Source of the DNA: Clostridia bacterium
GTDB taxonomy: Bacteria; Bacillota; Clostridia; Oscillospirales; CAG-272
Direction of reading: 5' to 3'
Assembly (NCBI GenBank): GCA_017396225.1
Contig: JAFQMP010000023.1
Span: 1 to 40,501 of the forward strand
DNA: 40,501 nucleotides
Shown here: piece after piece, positions 5,449 through 20,512 of the stretch
Layout: each line of letters starts with the position of its first letter
Position numbering within the stretch: the stretch's first letter is position 1
Notes under the pieces: generated by a model
What the model saw: only the letters and a program-made list of their open reading frames with translations
Databases searched by the model: none
What the model was told of the DNA's origin: nothing
Position numbers and translations under genes: made by a program

Positions 5449-8055
<2,607 letters not shown>

Positions 8056-8128
8056 TTATCATACCGCAGAATTTTCGCAAATACCATTCACACAACTGTT
8101 CAAAAAATGGACAAAATCGTACTATATA

Positions 8129-8157
8129 TTGATTTTTGCCAAAAATTAATGTATAAT
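8129..8157 (+). promoter_or_regulatory. Promoter of the AraC-family gene
   Basis: TTGATT (8129-8134) and TATAAT (8152-8157) are 17 bases apart. For the divergent beta-galactosidase only a weak set is visible on the minus strand: TATGAT at 8058-8063 with a poor -35 (TGGTAT). That weak set is consistent with a promoter needing an activator. Confidence 0.7.
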
Positions 8158-8188
8158 ATATATACCGCTGTCAAAAGGAGATGACAAA

Positions 8189-9085
8189 TTGTATACAAAC
8201 GTTGCATATCTGGGCAAGGAAAACGAGGATATCGTTGACGAAAGCACCCCCCTGCTTGTCACTGCGGTGGGCTACTACCGTATTCACACCCTTCGGACAC
8301 TGGAAACCAAAAGACCGCACGGACGCGGTGATTATCAGCTGCTTTACGTGAACAACGGCAAGCTCTATCTATACGAAAAGGGTGCGGAACGAGTCATTTC
8401 AAAGGGCAATATGCTCCTGTTCCGCCCGGGCGAGCCGCAAAGCTACGACATCTGCGCCAGGGACAAAACCGAAACCTATTGGGTGCATTTTACAGGCAGC
8501 AAGGCGGACGCACTGCTTGACCGCTACGAAATACCAAAGGGGCAAACGGTATTTTTTACGGGCACCTCTCCCGATTATGGGTGGCTTTTCAGGCAGATGA
8601 TACGTGAGCTGCAGCTTTGCCGCACGAATTACACCGACCTCCTCGGCATCAGTCTCAGGCAAATTCTGCTCATGATAAACCGCTTTCTGGAGGAAAACAC
8701 TGTGCTTGACGTTGATGCCTTAAACGAGGTAGAGCGCGCTATACACCACTTTAACGAAAGCTATTATCTACCCATATCTATCAAGGAATATGCCGTCTCC
8801 CGCCACATCAGCGAATGCTGGTTTAACCGTATTTTCAAACAGATAACAAAGGTTACACCAATGCACTACGTCATCAATCTGCGTATCATCAACGCCACCA
8901 ATCTGCTGGAAAACACAAATTACAGCATTGCAAAAATAGCAAAAACCGTCGGGTATGACGACGCCTATTATTTCAGCCGTTTATTCAAAAAACGCACAGG
9001 GCTCTCCCCCTCCGCATATCGAAAAAACGTGGAAAGCAGGCAGATTGATACCGAATATAAGTCCATTTACAGACATTTCCCGTAA
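8189..9085 (+). CDS. AraC-family transcriptional regulator (likely beta-galactosidase regulator)
   Basis: A 298-residue DNA-binding regulator. Residues about 25-130 form a cupin-type ligand-binding domain (MLLFRPGEPQSYDI). Residues about 185-290 contain the two helix-turn-helix motifs of AraC proteins, with the typical ends ISIKEYAVSRHISECWFNRIFK and the signature IAKTVGYDDAYYFSRLFKK. The start is a TTG codon at 8189: it has AAAAGGAG 8 bases upstream and no in-frame ATG fits, while the ATG at 8181 is out of frame. It is divergent from the GH2 gene, so local control of galactoside use is inferred. A long terminator follows. Confidence 0.88.
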   Translation: MYTNVAYLGKENEDIVDESTPLLVTAVGYYRIHTLRTLETKRPHGRGDYQLLYVNNGKLYLYEKGAERVISKGNMLLFRPGEPQSYDICARDKTETYWVHFTGSKADALLDRYEIPKGQTVFFTGTSPDYGWLFRQMIRELQLCRTNYTDLLGISLRQILLMINRFLEENTVLDVDALNEVERAIHHFNESYYLPISIKEYAVSRHISECWFNRIFKQITKVTPMHYVINLRIINATNLLENTNYSIAKIAKTVGYDDAYYFSRLFKKRTGLSPSAYRKNVESRQIDTEYKSIYRHFP

Positions 9086-9095
9086 AATCACGTCA

Positions 9096-9135
9096 AACGC
9101 GCTACACCGTATCATACGGTGTAGCGCGTTTTCTG
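9096..9135 (+). terminator. Intrinsic terminator after the AraC gene
   Basis: A perfect 15-bp stem (AACGCGCTACACCGT with its complement) and a 5-base loop, then TTTTC. It separates the regulator from glmS. Confidence 0.9.
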
Positions 9136-9186
9136 TTCAGGCCACAAGCAAAACAAGCCCTGCCTCTGCGTGCATTCCTTCACAAA

Positions 9187-9253
9187 TGCAACTAAGGGTT
9201 GCAAAAAATTCCAACTTTGCTTGGTTGCAAACAAAAAAGAAAACCGATACAAT
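9187..9253 (+). promoter_or_regulatory. glmS promoter with a TTGCAA-type inverted repeat upstream
   Basis: TTGCAA (9225-9230) and TACAAT (9248-9253) are 17 bases apart. Upstream, TGCAAC (9187-9192) and GTTGCA (9198-9203) form an inverted repeat, and the -35 itself lies in a second GGTTGCAA. Repeated TTGCAA half-sites make a repressor or activator site plausible. The leader is only about 40 bases and contains no glmS ribozyme core. Confidence 0.6.
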
Positions 9254-9298
9254 GACTTATATAGAAATTTTATATAGAAAATCAAAGGAGAAACTATT

Positions 9299-11131
9299 AT
9301 GTGTGGGATTATCGGTTATACCGGTCAAAAATGTGCCATTCCGATTTTGCTGGAGGGGCTTGCTACACTGGAATACCGCGGATACGACTCAGCCGGAATT
9401 GCCGTACAAAAAAACGGCTTGCAAACCGTCAAGGCAAAGGGGCGCTTGGCACTTTTGGAGGAAAAGCTGTCCGCTTGCGCTTATCTTGCTGATGCCACCT
9501 GTGGCATCGGCCACACGCGCTGGGCAACGCACGGTGAGCCGTCGGACGTCAACTCGCACCCCCATGGCACCGAGCGCTTGGCGTTGGTACATAACGGCAT
9601 TATTGAAAACTATATGGAAATTGCCGCGTTCCTCGCGGAGCAGGGTTACACCTTCTTATCTCAGACCGACACCGAAATTGCCGCCAAGCTGATTGACTAT
9701 CACTACGTCAAAACCGGGAATCCGCAGAAAGCTATTTTCAGTGCACTGGAAATGCTTCGCGGCGCCTACGCCTTTGGTATCTGCTTTGCCGACTATCCCA
9801 ACCGCATCTACGCCGTACGTCGGGATAATCCCCTGATTGTAGCCGTCACAGAGGACGGTGGTCTGATTGCCTCCGACGTCCCTGCAGTGCTGGCACACAC
9901 CAACACCTACTGGCGCCCTGAGGAAAAAATTCTGACCGTGATTGATGGCGCCGAAATCACCTTTTACAACAGCACGGGTGAAATGGTAACACAAGCGTCA
10001 GAAACCGTTGATTGGAATGTCCAACAGGCCAGGAAGGGCGGTTTCCCGCACTTTATGCTCAAGGAAATTCACGAGCAGCCAGCGGCTGTTTCTCACACCG
10101 TTTCAGCATATTTAAGGGACGGACTCCCTTATTTCAACTTGGAAGCATTGGACAGTGAGTTCCTGAAGAAATTCAATGCGATTCACGTCGTTGCCTGTGG
10201 CACCGCTATGCACGCGGGCCTGATTGGCAAGAATATCATCGAACGCATCTGCCGCGTGCCCGTTCATGTGGAAATTGCCAGCGAGTTTCGCTATCGCGAC
10301 CCCATTCTCGATAAAAATGATTTGGTCATTCTCCTGTCGCAATCGGGTGAAACCGCCGACACATTGGCGGCGCTCCGTCATGCAAAGGAAAAGGGCGTCT
10401 ATACCCTCGCCATTGTAAACGTAATCGGCTCTACCGTTGCGCGAGAGGCAGACAGTGTGCTTTATACGCTGGCGGGTCCCGAAATTGCAGTAGCCAGCAC
10501 CAAGGCATACAGCGTACAATGCGCCCTTCTTTATCTGCTTGCACTGCGCCTTGCACTGGTACATAAAAAAATCAGTGCTAAAGAGGCAAGGCAAATCTGC
10601 CAAAAATTACTTTCCGCAGTGCCGAAGGCCATTGAGCAGGCGTTGGCACTGAAAAACGAAATCAGCGCCTATGCCAAAACGCTGGTCGATGCCGAGCATC
10701 TTTTCTATATCGGTCGCGGTATTGACTGCGACCTCTGCACAGAAGCATCGCTAAAATTAAAGGAAATCAGCTATATCCACTCCGAAGCGTATGCCGCAGG
10801 TGAGCTTAAACACGGAACAATCTCACTGGTAGTAGAGAATACGCCCATCATCGCGCTTTGCACGGTATCCTCACTTGCCGAAAAAATGCTTTCGGGTATC
10901 CGCGAGGTCGCCTCGCGCGGCGCGAAGCTCCTGGTTGTTACAAGCAAGGCAGTTGCCGATGCTTATGACTTCCCTGCCGATATACACATTGTTCTGCCCG
11001 AGATTGACGAGCTTTTTGCTCCCTTCCCCGCATGCTGCGTCATGCAATTGCTTGCCTACTACGTGTCTGCCCAAAAAGGTCTTGACGTAGACAAGCCCCG
11101 TAATCTTGCCAAATCCGTAACAGTAGAATAA
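9299..11131 (+). CDS. glmS: Glutamine--fructose-6-phosphate aminotransferase (isomerizing)
   Basis: A 610-residue cytosolic enzyme making glucosamine-6-phosphate, the first step to UDP-GlcNAc for the cell wall. The N-terminus MCGIIGYTG exposes the glutaminase nucleophile Cys2 after Met removal. LEYRGYDSAGIA, HTRWATHG and HNGIIEN are glutaminase-domain motifs (residues about 1-225). Two SIS sugar-isomerase domains follow (about 285-420, containing ACGTAMHA and LLSQSGETADT, and about 455-590), and the C-terminal DVDKPRNLAKSVTVE is the family signature. The length is normal. AAAGGAG precedes the ATG, and the gene has its own promoter and terminator. Confidence 0.97.
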   Translation: MCGIIGYTGQKCAIPILLEGLATLEYRGYDSAGIAVQKNGLQTVKAKGRLALLEEKLSACAYLADATCGIGHTRWATHGEPSDVNSHPHGTERLALVHNGIIENYMEIAAFLAEQGYTFLSQTDTEIAAKLIDYHYVKTGNPQKAIFSALEMLRGAYAFGICFADYPNRIYAVRRDNPLIVAVTEDGGLIASDVPAVLAHTNTYWRPEEKILTVIDGAEITFYNSTGEMVTQASETVDWNVQQARKGGFPHFMLKEIHEQPAAVSHTVSAYLRDGLPYFNLEALDSEFLKKFNAIHVVACGTAMHAGLIGKNIIERICRVPVHVEIASEFRYRDPILDKNDLVILLSQSGETADTLAALRHAKEKGVYTLAIVNVIGSTVAREADSVLYTLAGPEIAVASTKAYSVQCALLYLLALRLALVHKKISAKEARQICQKLLSAVPKAIEQALALKNEISAYAKTLVDAEHLFYIGRGIDCDLCTEASLKLKEISYIHSEAYAAGELKHGTISLVVENTPIIALCTVSSLAEKMLSGIREVASRGAKLLVVTSKAVADAYDFPADIHIVLPEIDELFAPFPACCVMQLLAYYVSAQKGLDVDKPRNLAKSVTVE

Positions 11132-15875: not shown

Positions 15876-15915
15876 CTTTTCAGAGCGATTTTTTGTTTTT
15901 TCGGCAGAAAAACAC

Positions 15916-16081
15916 TTTTTTTGCGACTATTTATGGTTATAAACTTATTTTTATTGTATAATAGGCTTGTCGGACAGGATTTTTTGCACCGCCCGGCAGT
16001 ATTTTTCTTTTTTTGCGACAATTATTGTCGTATAAAAAATAATTTTAGTATTTAGTGGCAGATTTTTATTTTTTTTGCGAC
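15916..16081 (+). promoter_or_regulatory. AT-rich control region with three TTTTTTTGCGAC repeats and a palindrome
   Basis: The 300-base gap before the sigma factor holds three exact copies of TTTTTTTGCGAC at 15916-15927, 16008-16019 and 16070-16081. The second copy runs into CGACAATTATTGTCG (16016-16030), a perfect palindrome around a central T. The first two copies are followed at 10-11 bases by TATAAA (15938 and 16031), and a TATAAT lies at 15957-15962. Repeated motif plus -10-like boxes suggests several promoters or operator sites for the downstream sigma operon. Which box is used cannot be told by eye. Confidence 0.5.
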
Positions 16082-16143
16082 TTGTAGTAGTAGAGGGCCT
16101 GCCAAAAAAACAGGCGCTCAAAAGTTCGCAAAAGGAGCAGCTT

Positions 16144-16743
16144 ATGAAAGAAACGACACGAGAAAAAAGTCGGACAGTGCTTCCTGACAAAGAAATCATA
16201 GACCTTTACTTTGCACGCAACGAGCGAGCAATCAAGGAAACCGATTTCAAATACAGGAAATACCTGTTCACCATCGCGTACAACATCGTACATGACAACC
16301 TTGACTGCGAGGAGTGTCTGAACGACACTTACCTTGACACGTGGAATCAGATTCCACCCACGCGTCCCTCGGTATTCCAAGCCTTTTTATCCAAAATTAT
16401 GCGCAACATTGCCGTAGACAGATACCGTCGCAACACAGCTGACAAGCGCATTCCATCTGAAATGCTTCTCTCGCTTGAGGAGCTTGACAACTGCACACCT
16501 GCCGAAATGAGCATCGACGAGGAAATGGCAATTGCCGAGCTTAGCCGCATTCTCAATGACTACCTGAAGGGTCTTAGCGACCGTGAGCAAATGCTGTTTG
16601 TCTGCCGTTACTATTACGCTGACAAAATTGCCACCCTCGCCAAGATGCTGCAGGCAGGCGAGCGCACCGTTTACCGCGAGCTGTCTGAGCTGCGCGAGGG
16701 CCTGCGCGTACATCTCGAAAAGGAGGGATTTTCCTGTGAGTAA
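16144..16743 (+). CDS. RNA polymerase sigma-70 family (ECF-like) sigma factor
   Basis: A 199-residue sigma factor with region 2 (about 35-100: FKYRKYLFTIAYNIV, then DCEECLNDTYLDTWNQIPP and FLSKIMRNIAVDRYRR) and region 4 (about 135-195, with a helix-turn-helix around ADKIATLAKMLQAGERTVYREL). There is no region 3, as in ECF sigmas. The ATG at 16144 is chosen over the frame start at 16075 because AAAGGAG is 6 bases upstream. Its last 8 bases overlap the GTG start of the next gene, so the two are translationally coupled. That arrangement is typical of a sigma factor and its membrane partner. A palindromic, repeat-bearing control region upstream suggests autoregulation. Confidence 0.9.
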   Translation: MKETTREKSRTVLPDKEIIDLYFARNERAIKETDFKYRKYLFTIAYNIVHDNLDCEECLNDTYLDTWNQIPPTRPSVFQAFLSKIMRNIAVDRYRRNTADKRIPSEMLLSLEELDNCTPAEMSIDEEMAIAELSRILNDYLKGLSDREQMLFVCRYYYADKIATLAKMLQAGERTVYRELSELREGLRVHLEKEGFSCE

Positions 16744-19700
16744 GCAGCAAAAAAGAAATCTCGAGGTTGTTTCGCGCATTGATGACGATATTATTGAAAA
16801 AGCCTCCACAGAACGCGCAAATCTGTTGCTTGCGCTGAAAAAACGCATCAAAAAGACCTGGCTGATACGCGGCGGTGCAATGGCTGCCGGTTTTTTCCTC
16901 ATTGCCGCTACCGTCCTTGTGCTTGTCATCGCACTTGCCAAGGAGGTCCCCGTATATACGGGCATGACGGTGTCAGGCACGGCACCCAATATTACAGCAA
17001 GCGGCACACTCCCCTCCTATCTCACTCCCGGCAACGGAAACGGCAATGCCACGGGCAACAAGCACCTTTCGGGCAATCATACCGATGCGGACACAACGAT
17101 TGGCGACAAGCCCTTTGAAAAGCCGATTGGTGACGCCATCGGCGCACTAACCGTGGAGAGCACCGAGGAGCGCTATTACACGCAGCCCGGTGAGGACGTC
17201 TACATCACGATTCACATTGACAACCCTGACCAGTTTGAGATTCTTTCCTTTACCCTCAACGACAAGAAATATCAGAACCATATGTTTGAATACGGCTCCG
17301 ACCTTGAAAACATTATTCTGAAGGTCAACGTTGGTGAAGCAGAGGGTATCCTGTCCTACACAATCGACGCTATCAAGTATGTTGACGGCACCGAAATCAA
17401 GGACGTTAAGATGGAGGGTGACCGCACGGTTGAGATTGGTGTTTACACCGAAAAGCAGCCCGACGCCGTCTTCTCTTCCACCACCGTCGGCTACAACAGC
17501 ATTTCCTTTGCCGTTGACCTGACCGATACGATGAATCTCTTTGAAACGCTCTCGGGCGACGTGGAGGCAGTCCTTTACGACGGCAATTACATTGTTGCCC
17601 GTCAAAAGCTCTCGCTGAGTGAAAAAACAAGCGTCAGCTTCACAGGATTGAAAACAGGCACGCTTTACGAGTATGCTATCATCGCCACCTATGACGCGCT
17701 TGACGGCAAGGGCATTGCCCGTCACATCATCGCCTCGCACGCAACCTACACCAAGTCTATCGTACTCTTTGACAACGTAGCGGTCGGCACAAATAAGGTG
17801 TCATTCAGCTTCCTGTGGGATGCCGATTTTGCTGCCAAGACCGTCACCTCTCTGTCCCTTTACAGAAACGGCCTTAAGGAGCGCTCGCTTGACGTGACCG
17901 CCACCGAGGTAACAGGCCTTAAAACCGACACGGGCTACACCCTGACCGCCACCTATCAAAACGGCAGTGTCACCGAGGAAATCAGCATCTTCTTTGTCAC
18001 CGATGTGCTGACTGCCACGGTGAACCAGTACTTAGAAAATCTTGACGGCACCTACACCGTCATCAAGACCGAGAGCGAGGTCGTTTCCGAGGGTACGGTC
18101 TACGCGCCCCTGCTCGGCAGCTACGAGGGCTTCCTTACGCCCACCGTACCGCCCGTCACCCTGACCGACAGCTCCCACATCTTTGATTGCTACTTTGAGC
18201 GCATTGTCTACGCCGTCACCTTTGTTGACAACAACGGCAGCATCGTGACAGAAAACATCAAATACGGCAAGCCCCTCTCCACAGAGGTGCCTGCGCGTGA
18301 CGGCTTTACCTTTGGCGGCTGGTACCTTGACGTAAACCTCACCACACAGGCAGACGACACCGTGCCTGCAAACGCACTTACCGTCTACGCCAAGTGGCTG
18401 GTGGAGGCAACTGCTGCCGACCTCTCCTATACCGTGAGCGAGGGCAAGGCTACCATTACGGGGCTTCTGAACCCCGGGCTTACCGACCTTGTTATCCCTG
18501 CCTATATCGGCGGTATCCCTGTTGTCGCCATTGGCGATAGTGCCTTTGCCGACAAAACGGCGCTGCGCACCGTAAAGCTCCCCGACACTGTGACTGAGAT
18601 TAAATATGCGGCCTTTGCCCGCTCGGGGCTTACCGAAATCACGTGGTCGAAAAATCTCCTCACCATTGGCGTGGAAGCATTTAAACTGACCCCCCTCGCC
18701 TCCCTTACCATTCCTGCCTCGGTCGCCGACATCGGCGCCTACGCCTTTGCGGGCTGCGCATGGCTGACCGCTATCACCATTGAGGACCGCACCACCACCC
18801 TCACGGTTGGCGATTTGGCCTTCCGTATGAGTGGGGCAGCAGGCATTGATTCCCAACTTGAAAAGGTCATTGTAGAGGACCTTGCCGACTGGTTTAATAT
18901 TGTCTTTCCTGCAAGCGGCAGTGCAACCAACGCTTTAGGCAATCCCCTTCACCTCGGTGCCGACCTCTACGTGGGCGACACACTTGTAGAGTCACTTACC
19001 ATTCCCGAGGGTGTGACCTCGGTTCGCCCCTGCCTTTTTGCAGGCTGCACCTCCATTACCTCGGTCATCATTCCCGCAAGCGTGACCTCCGTTAACGCAT
19101 ACGCCTTTGCGGACTGCACCAATCTGCAGTACGCACTCTTTGCGGCAGGCAGCCGTGCGGGAATTGGTCGATACGCCTTCCAGGGCTGTACAAGCCTTTC
19201 CTCTGTAACGCTGCCCACCTCGCTTGCAGGAATCCCGCAGGGCGTCTTCTCGGGCTGCACCGCACTTTCGGGCATCACGATTCCCGACACGGTGACAAGT
19301 ATTGATGCATCTGCATTCGAGGGGTGCGCCGTAACGGTTGTAAACGGCATCTCTTACATTGGCAGCTGGGCACTGGGCGGCACGCCCACCGACGGCACCC
19401 TCTCGCTCCGCGCAGGCACTGTCGGTATTGCAGATTACGCATTCAGAGATGTATCCATCACAGGCACGGTGACGCTGCCCGAGGGTCTGAAATACATCGG
19501 CACGGGCGCCTTTTTGAACTTTACCTGCAGCGGCACGCTCACCATTCCCGATTCGGTCATTTCGGTTGGCCGCAGCACCTTTGAGGGCAGCTCCCTTGTT
19601 GACGAGGACACCGAGACGGGGCTTGTATACGTCGACAAGTGGCTAATCAACGCGCTCAATTATTATGGCAGCAGCGAGCTTACCGACCTGCGCGCAGACA

Positions 19701-20512
19701 CCGTCGGTATTGCAGCAGGCGCAGGTTTCTCCATCTATTCAGACGCGGCTCTCATCGCGATTCCCGAGGGCATCAAGCATCTGAACAGCGGCGCAATTCG
19801 AGTGGAATACAACGATCCGTACGTGCTCTCCCTCCCTGCTTCTCTGCTGACATTTAGCGAAGGGTCAATCAGCCTTAACAGCGGATATTGGCAAGCCATT
19901 ACGGTTGACGCCGCCAACACCGTCTTCAGCGGCGCGGGCAGCTGCCTTGTGGAAAGGGCTACGGGTACCCTCGTGCTCGGCTCTGCCACCAGCATCATTC
20001 CCACCGACGGCAGCGTAACGGCGATTGGCGTAAACGCCTTTGAAGGCTGCAAGGGGCTTACCGCCATTCATATCCCTGCCTCCGTGACCGAAATCCGAAC
20101 CAGTGCGTTCTACGGCTGCACCTCCCTTGCCACGCTCACCTTTGCCGAAAACAGCCAGCTTAAGGTCATCTGGGGTAGTGCATTTTATGGCTGCCGTCAG
20201 CTTACGGGCGTTGTTCTGCCCGACAGCCTGACCACGCTTTACCACGGCGCATTTACAACCTACAAAAGCGGCGGCTACATCGTCGTACCCACCAGTGTAA
20301 CCACCGCAGACCTGTCCTTTATGGCTCCTAACGGCATCATTTACTACTGTGGTGAGGCAGGTCCTGCGGCAGATATGATTCTGCCCCCCTCCCGCATCCA
20401 AGAGTATAATATGGCTATCTACTACTACTCCGCCACCAGGCCCGCCGAAAACCACGGCAATTACTGGCATTATGTGGACGGCACTCCCACCGTTTGGAGC
20501 GCAAACGCATAA
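16736..20512 (+). CDS. Membrane-anchored BspA-type LRR protein with anti-sigma-like N-terminus
   Basis: A 1258-residue protein. The GTG start at 16736 (GGAGG 9 bases upstream) is favoured over the longer upstream frame that runs inside the sigma gene. Residues 1-45 are cytoplasmic and contain RIDDDIIEKASTERANLLLA, like the short N-terminal segments of clostridial proteins encoded after ECF sigmas. Residues about 46-67 form one membrane span, so the rest lies outside. Then come a Gly/Asn/Thr linker (about 80-135), two or three immunoglobulin or FN3-like beta domains (about 140-490), one InlB_B/Listeria-Bacteroides repeat (about 490-553, FGGWYLD and TVYAKW) and about 25 LRR_5 BspA repeats (about 575-1230: IPDSVTSI-like strands, AFxGC). 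No LPxTG or other sorting signal is seen. I infer a surface sensor that sequesters the sigma factor; a plain adhesin is the alternative. Confidence 0.85.
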   Translation: MSKQQKRNLEVVSRIDDDIIEKASTERANLLLALKKRIKKTWLIRGGAMAAGFFLIAATVLVLVIALAKEVPVYTGMTVSGTAPNITASGTLPSYLTPGNGNGNATGNKHLSGNHTDADTTIGDKPFEKPIGDAIGALTVESTEERYYTQPGEDVYITIHIDNPDQFEILSFTLNDKKYQNHMFEYGSDLENIILKVNVGEAEGILSYTIDAIKYVDGTEIKDVKMEGDRTVEIGVYTEKQPDAVFSSTTVGYNSISFAVDLTDTMNLFETLSGDVEAVLYDGNYIVARQKLSLSEKTSVSFTGLKTGTLYEYAIIATYDALDGKGIARHIIASHATYTKSIVLFDNVAVGTNKVSFSFLWDADFAAKTVTSLSLYRNGLKERSLDVTATEVTGLKTDTGYTLTATYQNGSVTEEISIFFVTDVLTATVNQYLENLDGTYTVIKTESEVVSEGTVYAPLLGSYEGFLTPTVPPVTLTDSSHIFDCYFERIVYAVTFVDNNGSIVTENIKYGKPLSTEVPARDGFTFGGWYLDVNLTTQADDTVPANALTVYAKWLVEATAADLSYTVSEGKATITGLLNPGLTDLVIPAYIGGIPVVAIGDSAFADKTALRTVKLPDTVTEIKYAAFARSGLTEITWSKNLLTIGVEAFKLTPLASLTIPASVADIGAYAFAGCAWLTAITIEDRTTTLTVGDLAFRMSGAAGIDSQLEKVIVEDLADWFNIVFPASGSATNALGNPLHLGADLYVGDTLVESLTIPEGVTSVRPCLFAGCTSITSVIIPASVTSVNAYAFADCTNLQYALFAAGSRAGIGRYAFQGCTSLSSVTLPTSLAGIPQGVFSGCTALSGITIPDTVTSIDASAFEGCAVTVVNGISYIGSWALGGTPTDGTLSLRAGTVGIADYAFRDVSITGTVTLPEGLKYIGTGAFLNFTCSGTLTIPDSVISVGRSTFEGSSLVDEDTETGLVYVDKWLINALNYYGSSELTDLRADTVGIAAGAGFSIYSDAALIAIPEGIKHLNSGAIRVEYNDPYVLSLPASLLTFSEGSISLNSGYWQAITVDAANTVFSGAGSCLVERATGTLVLGSATSIIPTDGSVTAIGVNAFEGCKGLTAIHIPASVTEIRTSAFYGCTSLATLTFAENSQLKVIWGSAFYGCRQLTGVVLPDSLTTLYHGAFTTYKSGGYIVVPTSVTTADLSFMAPNGIIYYCGEAGPAADMILPPSRIQEYNMAIYYYSATRPAENHGNYWHYVDGTPTVWSANA

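Follow-up and report, generated by a model that had tools for sequence, protein, structure and literature searches.

In this study, we analysed a window of 40,501 nucleotides from a Clostridia bacterium (assembly GCA_017396225.1, contig JAFQMP010000023.1), which carries on its plus strand, to which all window coordinates below refer, a pair of overlapping genes, P0001 and P0002. P0001 (16144..16743) encodes an ECF-type sigma factor of 199 aa, and its open reading frame runs from an ATG at 16144 to a TAA stop codon at 16741-16743. The reading frame of P0002 starts with a GTG at 16736, inside the sigma gene, and extends to 20512, coding for a protein of 1258 aa; the resulting 8-nt overlap confirms the arrangement described in an earlier note on this DNA, which was made from the letters alone. 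As judged by sequence reading, both genes have a good ribosome-binding site, AAAAGGAG at 16130..16137 in the case of the sigma gene and AAGGAGG at 16720..16726, within the sigma gene, in the case of P0002. None of the other window genes that were compared had a matching neighbour in the eight closest loci; only P0001 and P0002 share their position there, and hence the pair stands alone. A profile search of the source genome, which is 88.8% complete, returned one sigma factor of the P0001 type.

P0001 has regions 2 and 4 and is without regions 1 and 3, as expected of an ECF sigma factor. It was assigned with Pfam and NCBIfam profiles, scoring 35.8 bits against Sigma70_r2 (cut-off 24), 31.5 bits against Sigma70_ECF (cut-off 21.1) and 63.6 bits against TIGR02937 (cut-off 42.9), and the score against the Pfam region 4 profile lies below its cut-off. 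In the AF2 model, which is poor outside region 4 (mean pLDDT 66), the region 4 helices are predicted at a pLDDT of 74-91. The first two of these, formed by residues 124-142 and 146-157, are encoded at 16513..16614 and include residues 138-153, which are coupled to a motif in P0002 as described below.

P0002 (16736..20512) is, based on its reading frame and Pfam matches, a single-pass, anti-sigma-like leucine-rich repeat (LRR) surface protein. The segment RIDDDIIEKASTERANLLL, quoted in the earlier note as the cytoplasmic start, is present, with at most 47 residues in front of the membrane span. The AF2 model has helices at residues 3-13 and 17-67 followed by beta domains. Residues 9-27 (16760..16816), singled out by alignment and direct coupling analysis (DCA), contain the helix with the ID motif that is predicted to bind sigma region 4. 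The span, assigned from hydrophobicity and the AF2 model, covers residues 48-67 (16877..16936); the hydrophobic peak starts at residue 49 and is preceded by KKRIKK. Right after the span comes a strand of residues 72-80 (PVYTGMTVS, 16949..16975; AF2 and alignment), which is confident in the model at 73-80 and whose residues P72, Y74, G76 and M77 are the same in all 52 alignment rows. It is followed by a linker of residues 81-146 (16976..17173), predicted to be disordered (pLDDT below 50 at 87-139) and 41-98 residues long in the 49 alignment rows, P0002 included. Next is a membrane-proximal FnIII-like domain (residues 147-238, 17174..17449; AF2 and fold comparison), the best conserved part of the ectodomain. 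The fold comparison also identified two more FnIII-like domains (residues 241-425, 17456..18010), and a fold search with the model of residues 1-480 returned FnIII tandem folds. FnIII-tandem structural alignments start at residue 69-72 of the P0002 model in many rows, and they suggest that the post-span strand may belong to the first FnIII-like domain. The sensor domain of Pseudobacteroides RsgI4 matches residues 241-342 (Z 9.5, rmsd 2.6, 92 residues aligned), tied with many FnIII rows, and we took this match as a common fold and not as kinship.

An InlB/List-Bact repeat (Flg_new, 49.5 bits) is found at residues 492-553 (18209..18394), so that the exterior with beta domains and an InlB repeat that had been claimed from the letters is indeed there. 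Further outwards, BspA-type LRRs (LRR_5, 18521..20305) score 273 bits (Pfam cut-off 27.7). The earlier count of about 25 repeats agrees roughly with the length of the LRR region, in which some 600 aa could accommodate about 25 units of 24 aa each; a search with a strict pattern recognised 9. The outer part looks like an adhesin, and P0002 scores 101 bits against the NCBIfam model of the HupY adhesin, short of the equivalog cut-off of 1250. In a direct reading of the C-terminus we found no LPxTG-type anchor, which leaves the N-terminal span as the anchor.

Upstream of the sigma gene, a pattern search found three perfect copies of GGCAG-N9-TTTTTTGCGAC (15903..15927, 15995..16019 and 16057..16081), at intervals of 92 and 62 nt; one or two such copies are seen in the closest relatives. 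If up to 3 mismatches are allowed, the window has 5 matches versus 0.93 expected, a number reached in none of 100 shuffles. It is possible that the three copies are tandem promoters or operator sites. As a genome-wide regulon search (3 mismatches), the pattern was too noisy, with 53 matches versus 27 for the reversed pattern. The third copy overlaps a promoter-like element common to the family (16066..16097), which is the best match in the window at 24.0 bits and was recognised from aligned sequences and not from mapped transcript starts. The underlying EM motif, obtained from 147 sigma upstream regions of the family, reaches 14.7 bits versus 7.0-7.1 in three shuffles, exceeds 8 bits in 129 of the 147 and ends in a GTGAAGGG-like sequence. 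The near-clade pattern of the element (up to 3 mismatches) occurs once in the source genome, 88.8% complete as noted. The simplest reading of this arrangement is that the sigma operon probably regulates itself. In several family members (L043, L041 and L040), the GAAGGG of the element is directly followed by a CCTTTC that could base-pair with the ribosome-binding site (GAAAGGAGG in L043), possibly forming a leader hairpin.

Gene pairs of this kind are widespread. For a first set, 59 relatives were searched and matches obtained in 38, with up to 22 in one genome; of the 108 places taken, 98 had a usable sigma factor with an overlapping or adjacent partner. Downstream of nearly all of these sigma genes lies a gene for a single-pass protein, whose first 4 or 8 nt usually overlap the sigma gene. 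In its cytoplasmic part, the partner N-terminus has a conserved motif built around ID-[DE]-x-[ILY]-[IV]-[ED], after which come basic residues and then the span, and the motif, in short form ID-D-x-[ILY]-[IV]-E, is kept whatever the outer part. A second set of 132 further sigma genes without overlap with the first came from a new draw from the class and the order, where a sigma factor of the P0001 type was detected in 20 of 128 (E up to 1e-15) and 108 of 197 genomes (E up to 1e-25), respectively. Here the partner start fell within -20..+30 in 122 of the 132, a 4-nt ATGA overlap was present in 104, and 126 match an N-terminal HMM built from the first set alone. The neighbourhood search proposed in the earlier note thus finds the adjacent partner in other Clostridia in both sets, in keeping with an anti-sigma gene being placed directly downstream of, and overlapping or adjacent to, its sigma gene. 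The most sigma matches were obtained in genomes G031 (22), G032 (12) and G027 (11), and the presence of a dozen or more such genes in some genomes suggests that many outside signals are sensed in parallel. The N-terminal segment matched no curated anti-sigma family in Pfam or NCBIfam, and its profile gave no convincing match among solved chains; nor was an LRR-bearing anti-sigma factor described in the titles or abstract beginnings covered by our literature search. The family may conceivably already carry a group number in the ECF classification. We consider it likely that the P0001/P0002 pair is a branch of a widespread sigma/anti-sigma family, for which no curated model was found in Pfam or NCBIfam and whose two proteins are predicted to bind each other directly.

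This prediction comes from the coevolution of the two proteins. Mean-field DCA was run on the partner N-terminus joined to the sigma factor, using 139 pairs from set 1, 126 from set 2 and their union of 265. In set 1, most of the strongest links join P0002 residues 15-24 to sigma residues 141-158, the top links including I19-V153, K22-Q149, I15-L141 and D18-K142; the top three in set 2 alone are I15-V153, I19-K142 and I19-N138. Although the two sets have only 1 link in common among the top 15 of each, they point to the same helices. The union yields seven links of 1.73-2.10, as compared with maxima of 0.89-1.28 after random re-pairing, and six of the seven lie between the ID-motif helix and the first two region 4 helices. 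Of its top 30 links, 18 connect residues 1-35 with region 4 (135-190), as against about 4 expected from the column shares. Motif residues 15-23 thus co-vary with sigma residues 138-153 across the 265 pairs. Couplings are strong to region 4 and none is clear to region 2. At the pair 18/142, the residues are acid and base in most pairs and base and acid in others (DR 65, ER 19, KD 13, KE 10, EK 8 and RD 8 of 265). The contact with the sigma factor that is expected of the cytoplasmic part of an anti-sigma factor is predicted here from coevolution.

We put the probability at roughly 0.8 that P0001 and P0002 form a two-gene ECF sigma/anti-sigma system, with the steps of release and self-transcription set out below. 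Adjacency, coevolution and the absence of the segment from homologues without a sigma gene, described below, support the earlier proposal as far as the cytoplasmic start is the predicted partner of the sigma factor, and very probably the short inner tail of P0002 holds the sigma factor silent. The further proposal of the note, that the LRR exterior senses a host or polymer ligand and thereby sets sigma activity, and that the protein may be an adhesin as well, is at present conjecture. An unlikely alternative is that the N-terminus binds the sigma factor as a membrane tether, activator or chaperone and not as an inhibitor, since coevolution indicates contact but not the sign of its effect. Most ECF sigma factors that are co-transcribed with a single-pass partner are controlled by an anti-sigma factor, which counts against this alternative, as does the finding that known anti-sigma factors place a helix on sigma region 4 (PMC7406223).

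Still less probable is that the couplings reflect the common ancestry of neighbouring genes and not contact. The genes are co-inherited, 126-265 pairs are a small number for DCA, and high couplings do occur outside the helix pair, namely V1-L133 in set 1 and V11-L133 in the union; both look ancestral, V1-L133 probably so. However, the columns of the span and the post-span segment, which share the same ancestry, reach couplings of at most 1.06, and re-pairing each partner with a nearest relative of its sigma factor (eight re-pairings, mean identity 0.56-0.58) abolishes the signal, the mean of the ten strongest couplings in the block falling from 1.70 to 0.58-0.73. In addition, two non-overlapping sets give the same helix pair and the charge pairs reverse together.

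The sigma/anti-sigma reading also bears on the relatives of the P0002 ectodomain. When the near-clade alignment was used to scan named bacterial genomes, 62 loci were obtained, all labelled as Clostridia or Oscillospiraceae apart from one Firmicutes bacterium, and many of them from ruminant or deer gut samples. In 50 of the 62, a sigma reading frame lies directly upstream and the motif is present; a further locus, L198, begins 77 nt from a contig edge and has the motif. The remaining 11 have neither the motif nor, within the 0.9 kb or more of upstream sequence that each locus offers, a sigma gene on the plus strand (L177, L178, L180-L182, L187, L192-L195 and L204). Ten of these 11 start with a lipoprotein signal and lipobox and one with a plain span; some exceed 2300 aa and are cut by the contig end. 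As judged from the accession prefix, three assemblies combine a coupled copy with an uncoupled one (L182/L188, L181/L198 and L187/L206). The earlier note had looked to LRR-protein homologues without a sigma gene as evidence against its proposal. Such homologues do exist, yet all 11 lack exactly the anti-sigma segment, and they therefore speak for the anti-sigma reading. The promoter matrix does not single out the sigma-less lipoproteins as targets, their best scores being -0.9 to 10.6 bits. That P0002 is a plain adhesin under its own sigma factor, with an uncleaved signal anchor as N-terminus and an overlap due to ordinary operon packing, would agree with the LRR_5, InlB and FnIII modules common in surface proteins, the similarity to HupY and the existence of lipoprotein homologues without a sigma gene, but is the least probable of the alternatives given that the motif persists in partners whose exteriors are unrelated, is absent exactly where the sigma gene is absent and co-varies with the sigma factor while the span does not.

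While the inner segment is kept, the outer module appears to be exchangeable. Among 101 first-set partners, LRR_5 was found in 9, a beta-propeller in 6, RsgI_M in 3, and a serpin and DUF4349 in 2 each, most having no family match; examples of a sigma-binding-type N-terminus fused to a serpin or a beta-propeller exterior are L090 and L075. Of the 44 full-length sigma-linked relatives of the ectodomain, 24 carry LRR_5, 9 an M23 peptidase, 7 fn3 and 2 GLUG as outer module, so that the LRR is one among several modules built on a common base, and the 8 full-length uncoupled relatives carry GLUG (4), LRR_5 (3) or M23 (1). A Tox-HDC match (7.4e-09) was seen in the outer part of one of the 44. On the sigma tree, the 45 labelled rows require 10 or more changes between LRR and other exteriors, but the starred branches force only 1, so that the outer module may have been swapped repeatedly. 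A distant family member in G031 (L108, on C161), whose sigma factor is 37% identical, has a strong LRR_5 exterior (1.3e-135), possibly an independent gain. At L164 (locus positions 6001-9891), similarity to P0002 continues beyond the end of a 548-aa reading frame, which places the LRR part in another frame, through either a broken gene or an assembly error.

According to the mechanism that we propose, helix 9-27 of P0002 would bind the first and second helices of sigma region 4 (around residues 138-153), and the bound sigma factor would be kept inactive at the membrane. A ligand, surface contact or tension acting on the LRR/FnIII exterior might then lead to the loss or proteolysis of P0002, with a first cut probably close to the outer face of the membrane, in the disordered linker 81-146, and then a second one within the membrane, made by an M50 protease. 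The M50 site-2 protease family was found in the source genome. The freed sigma factor would transcribe its own operon first, via 16066..16097, so that sensing would raise the amounts of sensor and sigma factor together. The C-terminal module would be exchangeable, being an LRR here and an M23 peptidase or another module in relatives. The conserved Asn163-Pro164 (50 of 50 gap-free rows) was considered as a self-cleavage site but is not favoured, as it is kept in the lipoproteins too. By analogy with RsgI (PMC12203970), the post-span strand could keep a cut ectodomain attached. A more elaborate and doubtful version makes P0002 both a surface adhesin and a force-gated anti-sigma factor: strand 72-80 would be part of an FnIII-like domain that the linker splits in two, the linker would be cut constitutively, the strand would then hold the exterior non-covalently, and a pull on the LRR arm would tear the strand out and open the stub to the intramembrane protease, with its own operon as the main target and the lipid-anchored sister proteins as uncoupled versions. 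If true, contact would switch on the surface protein, and the switch would amplify itself.

By analogy, the mechanistic kin of P0001/P0002 would be SigI-RsgI and RsiV, although P0002 matched no SigI-RsgI domain family. In SigI-RsgI of Clostridium thermocellum and Bacillus subtilis, as described in PMC12203970, RsgI contacts its sigma factor on the C-terminal side, that of region 4, and, as predicted for P0002, combines an N-terminal sigma-binding part, one span, a membrane-proximal domain and an exchangeable outer sensor. In contrast, P0001 scores as an ECF sigma factor, and the outer module of P0002 is an LRR and its proximal domain FnIII-like. P0002 matched none of the RsgI domain families in Pfam at E up to 1, and membership of the RsgI/SEAL group is not supported in view of this and of the FnIII-like look of the proximal domain; RsgI_M is present in the 3 of 101 family members mentioned above. 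RsiV (DUF4179, Bacillota) is likewise a single-pass anti-sigma-type protein with a receptor-type exterior, in its case a lysozyme receptor, and is activated by proteolysis (PMC6066255). Its exterior differs from that of P0002, and DUF4179 gave weak matches in 5 of 30 family N-termini (best E 0.017), none of them in P0002. Class II anti-sigma factors of the CnrY type share with P0002 a very short cytoplasmic part whose first helix lies on region 4 (PMC7406223); unlike in these, the P0002 couplings show no second helix on sigma region 2, and no sequence match was found. A class I domain of four helices, with helix 1 on region 4 and helix 4 on region 2, was rejected, as the stretch in front of the P0002 span is no longer than 47 residues, the model has just the helices 3-13 and 17-67, and Pfam lists no such match. 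Finally, BspA/HupY-type adhesins resemble P0002 in their LRR_5 and list-bact repeats, whereas P0002 is N-terminally anchored and has a cytoplasmic segment predicted to bind a sigma factor.

P0002 may therefore make contact with the surroundings and also signal this contact, and its LRR version, if the reading is true, would couple surface touch directly to transcription through one protein. In the wider family, one predicted sigma-silencing tail would be fitted with many different outer modules. The ID motif makes it possible to recognise, by sequence, the many putative sigma/anti-sigma pairs of gut Clostridia for which no curated model was found, and the co-varying pairs 18/142 and 22/149 make the predicted contact directly testable by charge swaps.
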